A stretch of 33,034 nt of DNA from a virus. Where the stretch lies: positions 1-33,034 of the IMG/VR virus record IMGVR_UViG_3300025778_000052; one strand, written 5' to 3'. The position numbers were made by a program, and so were the translations under genes. Within the stretch, counting starts at the first letter, position 1; each line of letters begins with the position of its first letter. Positions 7,591-19,758 of the stretch are shown piece after piece. The notes below the pieces were generated by a model. The model was not told the DNA's origin. It ran no database searches and was given only the letters and a program-made list of their open reading frames with translations.

Positions 7591-8061
7591 TTAATTAAAT
7601 CTGGCAAAATTGCCATGATATTTATAACGCATTGCATCTGCTACAAATTTTGCTACTTCTATGTCAAAATAACTTCCAAAATTAATCATTTTTTTGTTTA
7701 CTCTAAAAGTAACTCGATATTTATTAGTTTTTTTATCTAAACGAACTCCTTTAATTCCAGTTGTATTATTGATATTTAATTTAGTGTTGTAACCATTTTG
7801 ATTTCTTGTGGTTTCTCTTAAATTTTCAATTCTATTATCTGATTTAATGCCATTAATATGGTCTAAAAACTTTGGACAATATCCATAATGCATTTCATAA
7901 ATTATTCTATGAACTTTGTACTGTTTTTTATTAAAGCCAACACCTATGTAACCATCTTTATATAAAAATCCAGCTTTTTTACCTATAGTATTTTTTCTAC
8001 CATGCAATTTCTTCCAATAAAGTTCCCCATTTTTGTATTCAAAATAATCATTAAATTCCAT
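7591..8061 (-). CDS. HNH homing endonuclease A (HNH_3 plus AP2-like)
   Basis: This 156-residue protein has an N-terminal 'FEYKNGELYWKK' segment, the HNH core (KVHRIIYEMHYGYCPKFLDHIN followed by DNRIENLR, about residues 48-82) and a C-terminal AP2-like DNA-binding region (TTGIKGVRLDKKTNKYRVTF, then GNFARFN at the end). Such free-standing genes cut a cognate site and spread by repair. It lies between the exonuclease and the SSB-like gene and overlaps the exonuclease end by 11 bases, leaving both neighbours intact. It is one of four paralogues in the window and looks more AT-rich than its neighbours. Confidence 0.85.
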   Translation of the reverse strand: MEFNDYFEYKNGELYWKKLHGRKNTIGKKAGFLYKDGYIGVGFNKKQYKVHRIIYEMHYGYCPKFLDHINGIKSDNRIENLRETTRNQNGYNTKLNINNTTGIKGVRLDKKTNKYRVTFRVNKKMINFGSYFDIEVAKFVADAMRYKYHGNFARFN

Positions 8062-8719
8062 AATTTTTCATCCTTTCCACTTCACTTTCAACTTCACTTA
8101 AAAACTTGACTACTTCAGATTCTATTTCATCAATCATCGTTTTATCACGTTCTACACGACAAATAAACAACTGACTACGTTCTGGCATACGAGGATCAAA
8201 CGAGATAAAATCGCACCATTCTCGATTTGTTACTGCCATTTGGGATTGCATTTGTATAACGTATTTAGCTGGTGGTTTACCATCCTTAATTGTTGCCCAA
8301 TGTGTAGCAGAGTTAGGACACTTGATTTCAATAAGCCCATCATTATTGACAAGGCCATCAGGAGAGCAACCGAACCAAGATATAACGTCATGGTCGATAA
8401 AAGCGATTTGATCAACAAAATTACCTGTTTTAACTTCATAAGCAACTCTCGCCTGTGGTTCTGTAGCAGTTCCCCATGCCATAGCATCATTGGTGTACAT
8501 AGGTTCAATATTACCTGTTACTCGTTGTAATGCAAGTTCAATCAAGTAATTACCACGAGATGCAGATACACCAGTCTTAGTCTTGGCTAAAATGTCAGCA
8601 ACTCGACTAGCAGTAACTTTGCCTAAACGACATTCTTTAAGCCATTGCTCCGAACCTTGGATAATTCCTTCATACACATTAGCATTTAAAGTAACTGTTC
8701 CATCGTGGTTTGTTTTCAT
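8051..8719 (-). CDS. YqaJ/lambda-type recombination exonuclease
   Basis: This 222-residue nuclease is predicted to degrade one strand of double-stranded DNA ends and supply single strands to the annealing protein. Visible motifs are MAWGTATEPQARVAYE (about residues 80-95, Glu88), SPDGLV with Asp121 and the catalytic IEIKCP motif (Glu131, Lys133), in the order typical of the YqaJ viral recombinase family. It is sandwiched between two HNH homing endonuclease genes, with a 4-base overlap upstream and an 11-base overlap downstream. The AGAAAGGCA leader 8 bases before its ATG is shared with other genes of this block. Confidence 0.85.
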   Translation of the reverse strand: MKTNHDGTVTLNANVYEGIIQGSEQWLKECRLGKVTASRVADILAKTKTGVSASRGNYLIELALQRVTGNIEPMYTNDAMAWGTATEPQARVAYEVKTGNFVDQIAFIDHDVISWFGCSPDGLVNNDGLIEIKCPNSATHWATIKDGKPPAKYVIQMQSQMAVTNREWCDFISFDPRMPERSQLFICRVERDKTMIDEIESEVVKFLSEVESEVERMKNYGI

Positions 8720-9186
8720 TTATCTTGTGCCTTTCTTAGTAGATTTTTTGCTTCATCAATAGTCTTTGCAAAACCAATATAAGTTTGTTTACCATTTTTA
8801 GGAATTACAACTTTATATCCATATCCTTTAACATTATGAATATGTTTTATCCCTGTACTATTTCTATTGCTTAAACTGCTATTTAAAATGTTTTCAGACC
8901 TAGTGCACGGTCTTAAATTTTCAATTCTGTTATCACTACGAACTCTATTTATGTGGTCAATTTCTTTTGGAATATACCCATTAAACATCATAAAAACTAA
9001 TTGATGTCCTAAGTATTGTTTAGAATTGATAACAATTCGCCTATACCCATGACTAGTCATAGTTCCAGCTTCATCGCCAACTTTTGACCTGCTTTTAGGA
9101 TTTACAATTTTTTTCCAAAAAAGTTTGCCATCTTTATATTCTAAGATTTCATGCAATAGTTCTTTGGTTATAATGTTGTCAGCCAT
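8716..9186 (-). CDS. HNH homing endonuclease B
   Basis: This 156-residue protein has an N-terminal 'LEYKDGKLFWKK' segment, an HNH_3 core (GHQLVFMMFNGYIPKEIDHIN then DNRIENLRPCTRSEN, about residues 59-103) and a C-terminal AP2-like part (STGIKHIHNVKGYGYKVVI). AAGGAG precedes the ATG. Its last residues RKAQDK are written over the ribosome-binding leader of the exonuclease gene. This suggests insertion just upstream of that gene and adoption of its leader as coding sequence. It differs from copy A, so it is unlikely to be a recent duplicate. Confidence 0.83.
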   Translation of the reverse strand: MADNIITKELLHEILEYKDGKLFWKKIVNPKSRSKVGDEAGTMTSHGYRRIVINSKQYLGHQLVFMMFNGYIPKEIDHINRVRSDNRIENLRPCTRSENILNSSLSNRNSTGIKHIHNVKGYGYKVVIPKNGKQTYIGFAKTIDEAKNLLRKAQDK

Positions 9187-11658: not shown

Positions 11659-11859
11659 ATGGAAGAAATTAAGAAACTTTTGCAAGTTGAATTTGGTACT
11701 TTAGATGAGCTTTCAAGGCTTTTAGGTGTTAAGAATACGGCAGTTTATAACTGGGTATCTAGAGAGCAAATACCAATTAAACATTTAAAAAAATTAAGTG
11801 TTTTATCTGAAGGTCGTTTAACAAAAGAATTGCTTAGACCTGATTTATTTGGAGAATGA
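11659..11859 (+). CDS. Cro-like helix-turn-helix regulator
   Basis: This 66-residue protein has an N-terminal helix-turn-helix (LDELSRLLGVKNTAVYNWVS, about residues 14-34) followed by PIKHLKKLSVLSEGRLTKEL, the layout of Cro/YdaS-type phage regulators that bind short palindromes as dimers. A strong AAGGAGG lies about 5 bases before the ATG. It is the first rightward gene and sits beside a repeat-rich divergent region, so it probably controls one or both early promoters. No partner CI-type repressor gene is seen. Confidence 0.78.
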   Translation: MEEIKKLLQVEFGTLDELSRLLGVKNTAVYNWVSREQIPIKHLKKLSVLSEGRLTKELLRPDLFGE

Positions 11860-13702: not shown

Positions 13703-14034
13703 TGGAAAATCCTAATAAAGTCGTGGAATTTTTACTAAGAAACGCTGGTAAATATGCAAAAGCCAAATCTGAACGTATATATATCGAGGAGTTTAGAAAG
13801 TCTAAAAAAGCACTTTTAATGCAAATAGCACAGTTAAAAGGAGTTGAAACAATGGCAGCTCAAGAACGAGATGCATATGCCAATGAAGAATATCAGGAGT
13901 TGCTGGAAGGTTTAAAAGAAGCAATTTCAATAGAAGAAAAGTTACGCTGGCAGATGGTCGCTGCACAAATTAGAGTGGACATATGGCGGACTGAACAAGC
14001 AAACAATCGTTTTATAGAAAAGACAACCTTATGA
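13702..14034 (+). CDS. Helical replication-block protein, unknown function
   Basis: This 110-residue protein is strongly helical and charged, with FLLRNAGKYAKAKSERIYIE at the N-terminus, MAAQERDAYANEEYQELLEG in the middle and a WQMVAAQIRVDIWR helix near the C-terminus. It resembles a conserved but uncharacterised family found next to recombination genes in many proteobacterial phages. It starts in a TAATG overlap with the helicase gene, behind AGAGGA, and ends in an ATGA overlap with HNH gene C. Confidence 0.62.
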   Translation: MENPNKVVEFLLRNAGKYAKAKSERIYIEEFRKSKKALLMQIAQLKGVETMAAQERDAYANEEYQELLEGLKEAISIEEKLRWQMVAAQIRVDIWRTEQANNRFIEKTTL

Positions 14035-14513
14035 TTACAAAAGAATATTTGCAAGATAGATTTGAATATAGAAATGGTAATTTTTATAGAAAATTTGATA
14101 GTAAGTCAAAGCCCAAAAAAGGAGATGTTGTAGGGAGTAAAAATAAAGGTGGTTATATAGAAACTCGATTATTTAACAAACAATATAAATTACATAAATT
14201 GATTTGGTTATATTTTTATGGATATTTGCCAAAATATATTGATCATATTAATGGTGTAACTTATGACAATAGAATTGAAAATTTAAGAGAAGCAAATCAT
14301 TCTGAAAATATGATGAATACAAAAATGAGAATAACAAATAAAACAGGAATTAAAGGAGTTAATTGGCACAAAGCATCAAATAAATGGACAGTTCAATTAA
14401 TGGTTAATCAAAAAAAGAAATATTTTGGCATTTATGATGATATTGAATTGGCAGAATTGGTAGCAATTGAAGCTAGAAATAAATATCATGGCGAATTTGC
14501 AAGACACAATTAA
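14031..14513 (+). CDS. HNH homing endonuclease C (HNH_3 plus AP2-like)
   Basis: This 160-residue protein has 'FEYRNGNFYRK', an HNH core (KLHKLIWLYFYGYLPKYIDHIN, then DNRIENLREANHSEN, about residues 53-100) and a C-terminal AP2-like region (KTGIKGVNWHKASNKWTVQL) ending GEFARHN. It is closest in layout to copy A, sharing the KYHGxFARxN end. It is inserted between two small early genes with an ATGA overlap at its start and looks distinctly AT-rich. The next gene starts 8 bases after its stop, behind AAGGA. Confidence 0.85.
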   Translation: MITKEYLQDRFEYRNGNFYRKFDSKSKPKKGDVVGSKNKGGYIETRLFNKQYKLHKLIWLYFYGYLPKYIDHINGVTYDNRIENLREANHSENMMNTKMRITNKTGIKGVNWHKASNKWTVQLMVNQKKKYFGIYDDIELAELVAIEARNKYHGEFARHN

Positions 14514-16961: not shown

Positions 16962-17128
16962 TGTTTGATGACCTAATGGAGTTTTACCTAACTTGGCTAG
17001 AAATGGCAAAAGTTGTACCTAGTAATCGCTTAGAAAGACAACATGGCGAGAAATTAGCACAACAATTATTAGATTTATCGCAAAAAATACAAAAAGATTT
17101 AGACAAGCAAGTTACACATACTATATAA
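16961..17128 (+). CDS. 55-residue helical protein before the non-coding region
   Basis: This short frame starts in a TAATG overlap. The product (MFDDLMEFYLTWLEMAKVVP, then RLERQHGEKLAQQLLDLSQK) is predicted as two amphipathic helices. Its last codons overlap a strong promoter-like sequence (TATAAT at 17124-17129), so it marks the end of this operon. No family is recognised. Confidence 0.55.
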   Translation: MFDDLMEFYLTWLEMAKVVPSNRLERQHGEKLAQQLLDLSQKIQKDLDKQVTHTI

Positions 17129-17129
17129 T
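17100..17129 (+). promoter_or_regulatory. Sigma70-like promoter for the structured RNA region
   Basis: TAGACA (17100-17105, five of six matches to TTGACA) and a perfect TATAAT (17124-17129) are separated by 18 bases. Transcription would start near 17136, eight bases before the first predicted helix. This is the clearest promoter seen in the window. Confidence 0.6.
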
Positions 17130-17135
17130 TAATTC

Positions 17136-17495
17136 ATTACAGAGTCGTGTCTGTGAGATTAAGCCATTTAATAAGTATTTTGAGAGTTTAGGAAAGTAGT
17201 GTCAGAGTATTTTCTTAAACTACACGGCCTCAGGATACTTACTAAATGGTTTTTTTACTACTACGACTGTAATCGGACTCCATCCGACAGTAAGAACCTA
17301 CATGGGTTGCGTGGAAGAAAACATAGGCTAGTTCTAACCTTAACTGCAAGCCTCGCTAACTTAAATGGGTATAGCACAAGTTAAATAGATAAAGGTGAAA
17401 TGACTAACTATTTAACGATTGAACATTATCTTCGGAAGGAATAGAGCATTTACTTCTTAATGCTTGGTTCAAGTGTGATGATTCACCTTTAGATA
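17136..17495 (+). ncRNA. Candidate structured RNA upstream of terminase genes
   Basis: The gap at 17129-17597 has no plausible gene but folds strongly on the plus strand. Helices seen: 17144-17150 with 17222-17228 (7 bp, one GU); inside it, hairpins 17158-17162/17168-17172 and 17185-17198/17208-17221 (14 bp, two GU, loop of nine). Next come 17266-17269/17288-17291 stacked on 17273-17277/17283-17287 with a 3-base bulge, 17326-17333 with 17342-17345 plus 17349-17352, and 17357-17362/17378-17383. A final closed domain, 17391-17399/17482-17490 (9 bp), encloses 17419-17424/17467-17472, a CTTCGG tetraloop and 17445-17450/17459-17464. It could be a free RNA or a long leader of the packaging operon. 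No known RNA family was recognised. Confidence 0.55.
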
Positions 17496-17500
17496 TACTA

Positions 17501-17529
17501 TTGACTAAAATATGTAAATGCATTATTTT
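17501..17529 (+). promoter_or_regulatory. Candidate promoter for packaging genes
   Basis: TTGACT (17501-17506) and TATTTT (17524-17529) have the ideal 17-base spacing and lie in AT-rich sequence about 70 bases before the small terminase start. It follows the structured region directly, so the terminase genes could be read both from here and through the RNA. Bases 17530-17597 are AT-rich with no other feature seen. Confidence 0.45.
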
Positions 17530-17597
17530 AATAACTAATTGATTTATATAATTATTGATGTAAACTATTAAAAATAACTTACCGATAATAAAAGACT

Positions 17598-17930
17598 ATG
17601 CTACCTCACGAACCAACAGAGGCATTTAAAGAACTTGTAGAAACATCAAGTGGACTAGGACTGCCACAAGAACAAATCGCTGCACTAATTGGTATAACAG
17701 CTAAAACACTTGCAAAGCATTACAAGACAGAACTGATTGTAGGCAAGGCAAAGGCAAGCTCGGCAATAGCGAATACACTATTTAACAAAGCACAAGCTGG
17801 CGATACAACTGCAATGATCTGGTGGACTAAGGCACAAATGCGTTGGAGTGAAACAGTCAAGCAAGAACTCACAGGTGCAGATGGTGAGCCACTAACCATT
17901 CAACTATTACCTCAAGACGAAAACGCTTGA
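17598..17930 (+). CDS. terS: Terminase small subunit
   Basis: This 110-residue protein has an N-terminal helix-turn-helix-like region (GLPQEQIAALIGITAKTLAK, about residues 21-40) followed by 'KASSAIANTLFNKAQAGDTTAMIWWTKAQMRW', a pattern typical of phage small terminase subunits that bind the pac region and regulate the large subunit. It is first in the packaging operon and overlaps the large subunit by 4 bases (TTGA). No clear Shine-Dalgarno site precedes the ATG. Confidence 0.8.
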   Translation: MLPHEPTEAFKELVETSSGLGLPQEQIAALIGITAKTLAKHYKTELIVGKAKASSAIANTLFNKAQAGDTTAMIWWTKAQMRWSETVKQELTGADGEPLTIQLLPQDENA

Positions 17931-19285
17931 AACTCCATAGAAAACAAGTTGACGCTTTAAATGTCATCAATGGCGATTCTACCTATGCTATGCTATTTGG
18001 TGGCAGTAGGTCAGGTAAGACATTTCTATTAGTAAGACAAATCATTGTTAGAGCATTAAAAGCACCTAAAAGCCGTCATGCTATATTAAGGTTTAGATTC
18101 AATCAGGTTAAGAACTCGATTATCTATGACACATTCCCAAAGGTCATGGAGCTTGCTTTCCCAAATGTTCAATATAAAGTCAACAAGACTGACTGGTTTA
18201 TTACTTTGCCAAATGGTTCTGAGATATGGTTTGGTGGACTCGATGATAAGGAACGGACTGAAAAGATTCTCGGTATGGAGTTTGTAACTATCTATTTAAA
18301 CGAGTGTTCTCAAATACCATATCAATCTGTAGGTATAGCAATAACTCGTTTGGCACAGAAAGTCGAACAGGTTATTGAAGGCAAACCCAATTCTTTACTC
18401 AAGCCTAGAATGTATTTTGACTGCAATCCTCCGAATAAAAACCATTGGACTTATTCATTATTCATTCAGCATAAGGATGTAGAAACTAAATTACCACTTA
18501 AAAATGAGCATGATTACTGTCATTTTCAGATTAATCCGTATGATAATAAAGAAAACTTATCGGATGGCTACTTAGAAACCTTGAACAATTTAAGTGCTAG
18601 ACTTAGAAAAAGGTTCTTGGAAGGAGAGTTTGCCGATGCGAACCCAAATCAATTATTTAAAGAAGAAGATATTGACAAATGGCGAGTTGAAGACGAACGC
18701 TTACCTGACTTTGTGCGTGTGCTTGTCGGTGTTGATCCAAGTGGTTCTGGTGATACTGATAATGCAGATAATGACGCAATTGGAATCGTGGTCGGTGCTC
18801 TGGGTGTAGATGGTAACGCTTATTTACTAGAGGATTGCACAGTCAAAGCTGGGCCTGCAACATGGGGTAAAGTTGTAGCATCTGCATTTGAACGTCATAA
18901 AGCTGATTTAGTATTAGCTGAATCTAACTTTGGTGGAGCAATGGTCGAACAAGTTATTCAGTCTGCTAGACCAAGAACACCATATAAAGCCGTAAGTGCA
19001 TCAAGAGGCAAAGTAATTCGTGCAGAACCATTTGCACTTTTGTACGAACAAGGTAAAATTAGGCATTGTGGGCGATTTATTGATTTAGAAGATGAAATGG
19101 CTGGATTCTCGACACAAGGTTACATCGGTAATTCATCTCCGAACAGAATGGATGCTTGGATATGGGTACTGACTGAGTTGTTTCCAGGCATGGTGCGAGA
19201 ACGTGTAGAAAAGAAATTACAACAACCAATAAGAAGACCTATGATGTTTACTCGTAACGGAAATTATGGAGGTAATTGGGGATGA
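17927..19285 (+). CDS. terL: Terminase large subunit (ATPase/nuclease)
   Basis: This 452-residue motor protein packages DNA into the prohead. The ATPase shows Walker A GGSRSGKT (residues 25-32) and Walker B FVTIYLNE with Glu126. The C-terminal RNase H-like nuclease shows GVDPSGSGDTDNADNDAIGI (first aspartate), DLVLAESNFGG and RMDAWIWVLTEL (last aspartate). It begins with TTG in a TTGA overlap with the small subunit; the first in-frame ATG lies only three codons before Walker A, too late for a complete domain. Its 3' end contains GGAGG that serves the HNH gene after it. The family and order fit P22-like headful packaging. Confidence 0.92.
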   Translation: MKLHRKQVDALNVINGDSTYAMLFGGSRSGKTFLLVRQIIVRALKAPKSRHAILRFRFNQVKNSIIYDTFPKVMELAFPNVQYKVNKTDWFITLPNGSEIWFGGLDDKERTEKILGMEFVTIYLNECSQIPYQSVGIAITRLAQKVEQVIEGKPNSLLKPRMYFDCNPPNKNHWTYSLFIQHKDVETKLPLKNEHDYCHFQINPYDNKENLSDGYLETLNNLSARLRKRFLEGEFADANPNQLFKEEDIDKWRVEDERLPDFVRVLVGVDPSGSGDTDNADNDAIGIVVGALGVDGNAYLLEDCTVKAGPATWGKVVASAFERHKADLVLAESNFGGAMVEQVIQSARPRTPYKAVSASRGKVIRAEPFALLYEQGKIRHCGRFIDLEDEMAGFSTQGYIGNSSPNRMDAWIWVLTELFPGMVRERVEKKLQQPIRRPMMFTRNGNYGGNWG

Positions 19286-19758
19286 ATCTTAAAAATTTAG
19301 TGAATTACAATCCTGAAACGGGTATTTTTACAAGAAAAGATAAAAAAAACAAAATTATTGGCAGTTATGATCAAGATGGATATTTAAGAACAGTAATAAA
19401 ATATAAAGAATATAAACTTCATAGATTGGCATGGTATTTAACACATGGAGAATGGCCTAAACATCAAATAGATCATATTAATAAAATTAAAGATGACAAT
19501 AGATTATGTAACTTAAGAGAAGCTAAAAATTTTGAAAACATGGCAAATAGAGTTTTAACCAATAATAAATATAAATTTGTTGGTGTTAATTTTGACAAAA
19601 GAAATAATAAATTTATGGCTAGAATTATGACTTTTGATCCAAAATTAGGACTTAGAAAAAGAAAACATTTAGGTTATTATGAAACAGCTCAAGAAGCATC
19701 TGAGGTTTATGACTTGTGGGCTCAAATGACACAAGGAGAGTTTTATCATGGCAGATAG
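19282..19758 (+). CDS. HNH homing endonuclease D, between terL and portal
   Basis: This 158-residue protein starts at ATG 19282 in an ATGA overlap with terL. It has a 'YNPETGIFTRKDKKN' N-terminal segment, an HNH core (KLHRLAWYLTHGEWPKHQIDHIN, then DNRLCNLREAKNFEN, about residues 43-91) and an AP2-like C-terminal region (YKFVGVNFDKRNNKFMARIM). Its last 11 bases overlap the portal start, whose AAGGAG lies inside this gene. It interrupts the otherwise P22-like order without damaging either neighbour. It is more AT-rich than terL and portal. Confidence 0.85.
   Translation: MNLKNLVNYNPETGIFTRKDKKNKIIGSYDQDGYLRTVIKYKEYKLHRLAWYLTHGEWPKHQIDHINKIKDDNRLCNLREAKNFENMANRVLTNNKYKFVGVNFDKRNNKFMARIMTFDPKLGLRKRKHLGYYETAQEASEVYDLWAQMTQGEFYHGR

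Follow-up and report, generated by a model that had tools for sequence, protein, structure and literature searches.

The window analysed here is the 33,034-nucleotide (nt) stretch covering positions 1-33,034 of IMG/VR record IMGVR_UViG_3300025778_000052, and the element in question lies in the gap at 17129-17597, just ahead of the small terminase gene terS. A preliminary description of this DNA had called the gap free of genes and seen in it a candidate structured RNA, with a promoter of its own that put the start near 17136. No credible gene was found in the gap, and the sole listed open reading frame (ORF) of at least 50 amino acids (aa), at 17199-17384, fell inside the RNA. The RNA was borne out by covariation, folding energy and a conserved promoter, and we conclude that the window encodes a structured RNA at 17136-~17511. 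Its parts and its neighbour are as follows.

17100-17129, plus strand: sigma70-type promoter, 11 of 12 consensus matches, conserved in the family
17136-17256, plus strand: domain D1, with the predicted 5' end, a 5' hairpin, a long hairpin and a U-run (fold z = -9.4; architecture in 95/124 members)
17144-17150, plus strand: 5' strand of the D1 pseudoknot, GTCGTGT, pairing with ACACGGC at 17222-17228 with one G-U pair
17222-17228, plus strand: 3' strand of the D1 pseudoknot, ACACGGC, immediately after the apical hairpin (sequence and family complementarity)
17250-17256, plus strand: U-run directly 3' of the long hairpin, intrinsic-terminator-like and internal to the RNA (sequence; 95/124 members)
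17267-17273, plus strand: 3' strand of helix P0, CTGTAAT, pairing with ATTACAG at 17136-17142, so that D1 is closed onto D2 when the RNA is full-length
17270-17501, plus strand: domain D2, the conserved pseudoknotted core (covariance model match; covariation)
17279-17282/17312-17315, plus strand: D2 helix PKA
17295-17298/17305-17308, plus strand: D2 helix H2
17325-17328/17350-17353, plus strand: D2 helix H3
17355-17360/17369-17375, plus strand: D2 helix H5
17364-17367/17424-17427, plus strand: D2 helix PKB
17380-17388/17408-17416, plus strand: D2 helix H6
17484-17511, plus strand: 3' boundary motif CACC...CTATTGACTAAA (family consensus CACCCTTGGGGAACCTATGnCTAAA)
17528-17597, plus strand: conserved terS leader, not part of the RNA
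17598-17930, plus strand: terS, outside the RNA (PHROG 309, E = 8e-18)

The entry point to the family was a 56-base similarity between the window and phage L063, which led to the motif GCATGGGYTGCGYGGAAGAA. This motif was found in 29 contigs, wider patterns gave more, and a hidden Markov model of 20 cores recovered at least 209 loci among the phage contigs fetched by the motif. When the window was compared with the covariance model CM R1, positions 17270-17441 matched with 135.9 bits (E = 4e-43); together with the D1 pseudoknot GTCGTGT/ACACGGC and the 11/12 promoter, this places the window in the family. Two control loci taken from chance motif matches gave no model match.

In an alignment of 36 sequences, the eight D2 helices, including two pseudoknots, showed 95% paired cells vs 68% in shuffled sequences and 26-42% with slid partners, and there were 345 double-change cells vs 114 after shuffling, with a covariation score of 0.73 vs 0.24. 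Among 98 sequences aligned by the covariance model, an alignment that leans to the model and is built, like the other, from mutually related homologues fetched by motif, 96.4% of cells were paired vs 61% shuffled and 24-45% slid. The helix PKB is absent from the model, and its inner pairs were almost always canonical in the 98 sequences and switched together (GC/AU/UA). Both the D2 helices and PKB covary among homologues, and by sequence comparison the D2 core has at least two covarying pseudoknots. The structured RNA of the preliminary description was thereby upheld, but several of the helices it listed are not those supported by evolution. To our knowledge, large structured RNA families with such covariation are rare.

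The fold of 17130-17597 was more stable than that of shuffled sequence (z = -5.2), and the minus strand gave a weaker value (z = -2.0). The 5' domain alone (17136-17274) reached z = -9.4, but the 3' domain alone did not stand out (z = -1.6), as the folding program cannot see the pseudoknots that this domain contains. Support for the 3' domain comes from covariation instead, and minimum free energy alone would have missed D2.

The promoter had also been noticed in the preliminary description, as TAGACA (-35, 17100-17105), an 18-base spacer and TATAAT (-10, 17124-17129); it overlaps the end of an upstream 55-aa ORF. Promoter-like matches in the region were not above chance on their own, with 4 found vs 3.4 expected. 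The site was confirmed by its conservation across the family: a promoter with at least 9/12 matches lay ahead of the same hairpin in 52% of 84 homologues vs 3.7% of shuffles, and the -10 element stood mostly at a single fixed distance from this hairpin. The RNA very probably has its own promoter.

Domain D1 begins with a 5' hairpin spanning 17139-17154 (17139-17143/17150-17154), followed by a long hairpin (e.g. 17164-17170/17243-17249). A terminator-like hairpin and U-run ahead of the core were present in 95 of 124 non-redundant members. In 84 of these 95, perfect complementarity over at least 7 base pairs (bp) linked the loop of the 5' hairpin to the stretch that follows the apical hairpin, vs 8.5% of shuffled leaders, and 62 distinct sequences of at least 6 bp were seen at this pseudoknot. 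Helix P0 reached at least 6 bp in 22 of 53 members (42%) vs about 9% of shuffled leaders, with varying sequences such as GTTGGC/GCCAAC, GTCTG/CAGAC and GTCGGTG/CACCGAC. P0 can form only once transcription has passed the U-run, in competition with the 5' hairpin. Since it joins the 5' end of the RNA to the start of D2, the molecule under selection reaches beyond the U-run. In L063 and L102, the promoter and D1 were followed by an ORF and then by D2. Upstream of D2 in L186, L118, L191, L114, L063 and L227, a second type of D1 was observed, with common segments such as GGGCTTnGTCA ... GCCCAA ahead of the U-run; this looks like the same module folded differently.

Sequence comparison places the 3' limit of the RNA near 17511 and not at the end of the gap, which corrects the first reading, because 17528-17597 is a terS leader common to relatives without the RNA. 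The family consensus CACCCTTGGGGAACCTATGnCTAAA at this boundary resembles a ribosome-binding site and start codon. Of 92 members, 77 had a start codon (ATG/TTG) at the same position, preceded at 5-6 nt by GGGGA. RNA-polymerase elemental pauses show GG at -11/-10 before TG, and this pattern was found in 98 of 114 members with the conserved TG of the boundary, which would fit a polymerase pause there. A candidate helix between the CACCCC loop and either the 3' GGGG or GGUG was mostly invariant, and the window is misaligned at this place.

No Rfam 15 family matched at gathering level in the window or in seven family loci, and at E up to 1 or 10 there were only weak matches far below gathering, such as microRNA and small nucleolar RNA. 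The covariance models of GOLLD, ROOL, HEARO, group I intron, transfer-messenger RNA (tmRNA), RNase P and 6S gave no match; ARAGORN detection of tmRNA and transfer RNA (tRNA) was negative, and no tRNA was found in nine loci scanned. No description of the RNA family was found in the open-licence literature. The suggestion that the RNA had not been described before thus held, and on this evidence the family is almost certainly a new one. The novelty lies in the RNA family, as the broad class, large phage RNAs of unknown function, already exists.

The RNA was carried by phages from aquatic metagenomes, P22-like and T7-like ones among them, and it was present as a single copy in 37 of 40 RNA-bearing contigs (38 match, one with an extra weak match). 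By blastn, neither the window gap nor either of two single homologues matched anything among 50,697 phage records; when diverse cores were mixed as the query, MW202674 and MW202484, two podoviruses in GenBank, were found to carry the RNA. In bacterial genomes the strict motif had two matches, and the model gave one solid match in 399 genomes of Burkholderiales and in 398 of Pseudomonadota, which makes this an essentially viral family. Weak covariance-model matches occurred in four Burkholderiales genomes. A divergent member (42.5 bits) in an Acidovorax sp. NB1 prophage region (L095/L123) adjoins a primase-like gene and, unlike other members, is followed by a terminator-like hairpin with TTTTTT. 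At MW202674 5130-5377 (L315 3004-3251), the hypothetical proteins UOF80263.1 and UOF80264.1 have been annotated on, or overlapping, the strand antisense to the RNA; they are probably not genes.

The closest terS relatives in IMG/VR, including one with a 97% identical TerS, have a gap of ~90 bases at the same place, and the last 70 bases ahead of terS were conserved in all of them. Thus the window phage and three near-identical contigs have some 380 additional bases (roughly 17129-17520), and they are the sole collected members adjoining terS. Other members precede replication-initiation or ParB-like genes or lie between T7-type capsid-assembly and major capsid genes, and most members are in the early/replication region. 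In phage G033, whose TerL is 90% identical, the RNA comes after a cro-like gene and lies 5.5 kb ahead of terS; the cro-like gene of the window (11659-11859) overlaps its next gene. These placements indicate that the RNA gene is portable between genomic places. Many contigs of the T7-like group had a promoter-like sequence separating D2 from the capsid gene; in L201, L210, L217, L223, L232 and L282 of this group, a sigma70-like promoter stood no more than 75 nt beyond the RNA and ahead of the major capsid gene.

We favour a portable RNA gene whose core would act as a folded RNA, more likely in trans than in cis like the put RNA of phage HK022. Transcription of 17136-~17511 would start at its own sigma70 promoter, and D1 would serve as an attenuator that either releases a short RNA or lets the polymerase through; the D1 hairpin rather likely terminates transcription in vivo. 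The read-through product would fold into the D1-P0-D2 form, and its 3' end would be made by processing or by run-off into the next gene. D2 would then act as a folded RNA on the host transcription or translation machinery during infection, and we see an even chance that it acts in trans. A more tentative proposal is that this is a widespread RNA-only phage effector or regulator, attenuated, self-contained and moved between operons and phage groups, whose pseudoknotted core would directly capture host RNA polymerase or ribosomes, or reprogram them.

Several points weigh against this trans-acting reading. Full termination at the D1 hairpin would leave D2 hardly made, and the 3' motif of the window copy no longer has its GGGG. 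No intrinsic terminator was found 3' of D2 in 93 loci, save at most one doubtful case. Furthermore, where homology decides, the next gene is co-directional in 47 cases vs 4, as would be the case for a cis leader.

The last two points favour cis control of transcription like that of HK022 put, which we consider a less likely but serious rival. D1 would then stand at an operon's head as a terminator gate. While still attached to RNA polymerase, D2 would make the enzyme resist later pauses or terminators. Both are structured RNAs that head phage operons from sigma70 promoters, the placement after a cro-like gene in G033 is as for nutR/putR in lambdoid phages, and the GG before TG at the 3' boundary is elemental-pause-like. 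For putL, the pause acted on lies 21 nt past the second stem of the RNA (PMC9378689). However, homology puts the downstream gene of L063 and L114 on the opposite strand, convergent with the RNA, so that the RNA is no leader there. In 24 of 114 members a promoter-like sequence separated D2 from the next gene, and the terminator-like hairpin precedes D2, so D2 cannot act on it. The put RNA has two stems and about 70 nt (PMC9378689), whereas the present RNA has ~375 nt, two domains, several pseudoknots, an internal terminator-like hairpin and no matching fold.

A translation-control leader, in which the GGGG would be a Shine-Dalgarno sequence and the ATG/TTG a start codon that D2 hides or lays bare, accounts for the fixed start codon and GGGGA of the boundary. 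We consider it improbable, since the frame from this codon was no longer than the +1 frame (at least 60 codons in 14 vs 14), the mini-ORFs are short and variable, 15 members have no start codon and the window has no GGGG. The late-transcription role that the preliminary description raised as an alternative may apply, but the majority of members are found in the early/replication region. It is very unlikely that the RNA is a remnant or part of a mobile HNH-linked ribozyme or intron-like element: HNH ORFs lie directly 5' of D2 in L063, L130 and L188 and the genomic place changes, but most members have no HNH ORF and keep the same position within a phage group, and the RNA has its own promoter, no exons and no Rfam intron match. 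A packaging RNA acting with the terminase like phi29 pRNA, proposed from the position before terS, is scarcely credible, since that position is confined to the window and three near-identical contigs, the other members precede replication, ParB-like or major-capsid genes, close terS relatives have no RNA there, and size and architecture differ from phi29 pRNA.

The phage large RNAs GOLLD and ROOL are still without assigned function. They are the nearest to the present RNA in kind, but not in sequence or fold (PMC12286853). The ORF that can sit between D1 and D2 is a point of likeness with GOLLD, a phage or prophage RNA often exceeding 800 nt, whereas here the length is about 375 nt and no tRNA was found in the loci scanned. 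ROOL is likewise phage-encoded with multiple pseudoknots, but has about 660 nt and often lies near tRNA islands; neither family was matched in Rfam. HEARO, the IscB-associated RNA, resembles the few members in which an HNH ORF adjoins the RNA; it too gave no match, and the HNH ORFs here are small HNH_3 genes (some with AP2), not IscB. The RNA is small enough for biochemistry, with a structure model ready and compensatory mutations testable, and phage annotation places false ORFs on such RNAs.

The window phage is rich in homing endonucleases. Four HNH_3 endonuclease genes were observed, at 7591-8061 (minus), 8716-9186 (minus), 14031-14513 (plus) and 19276-19758 (plus), one of them between terL and portal; three have an AP2 match, and all are similar to one in G033. 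In the terS leader, TTGATTT was invariant across ten aligned sequences, and the block contains a possible late promoter, TTGATT-16-TAAACT, independent of the RNA.
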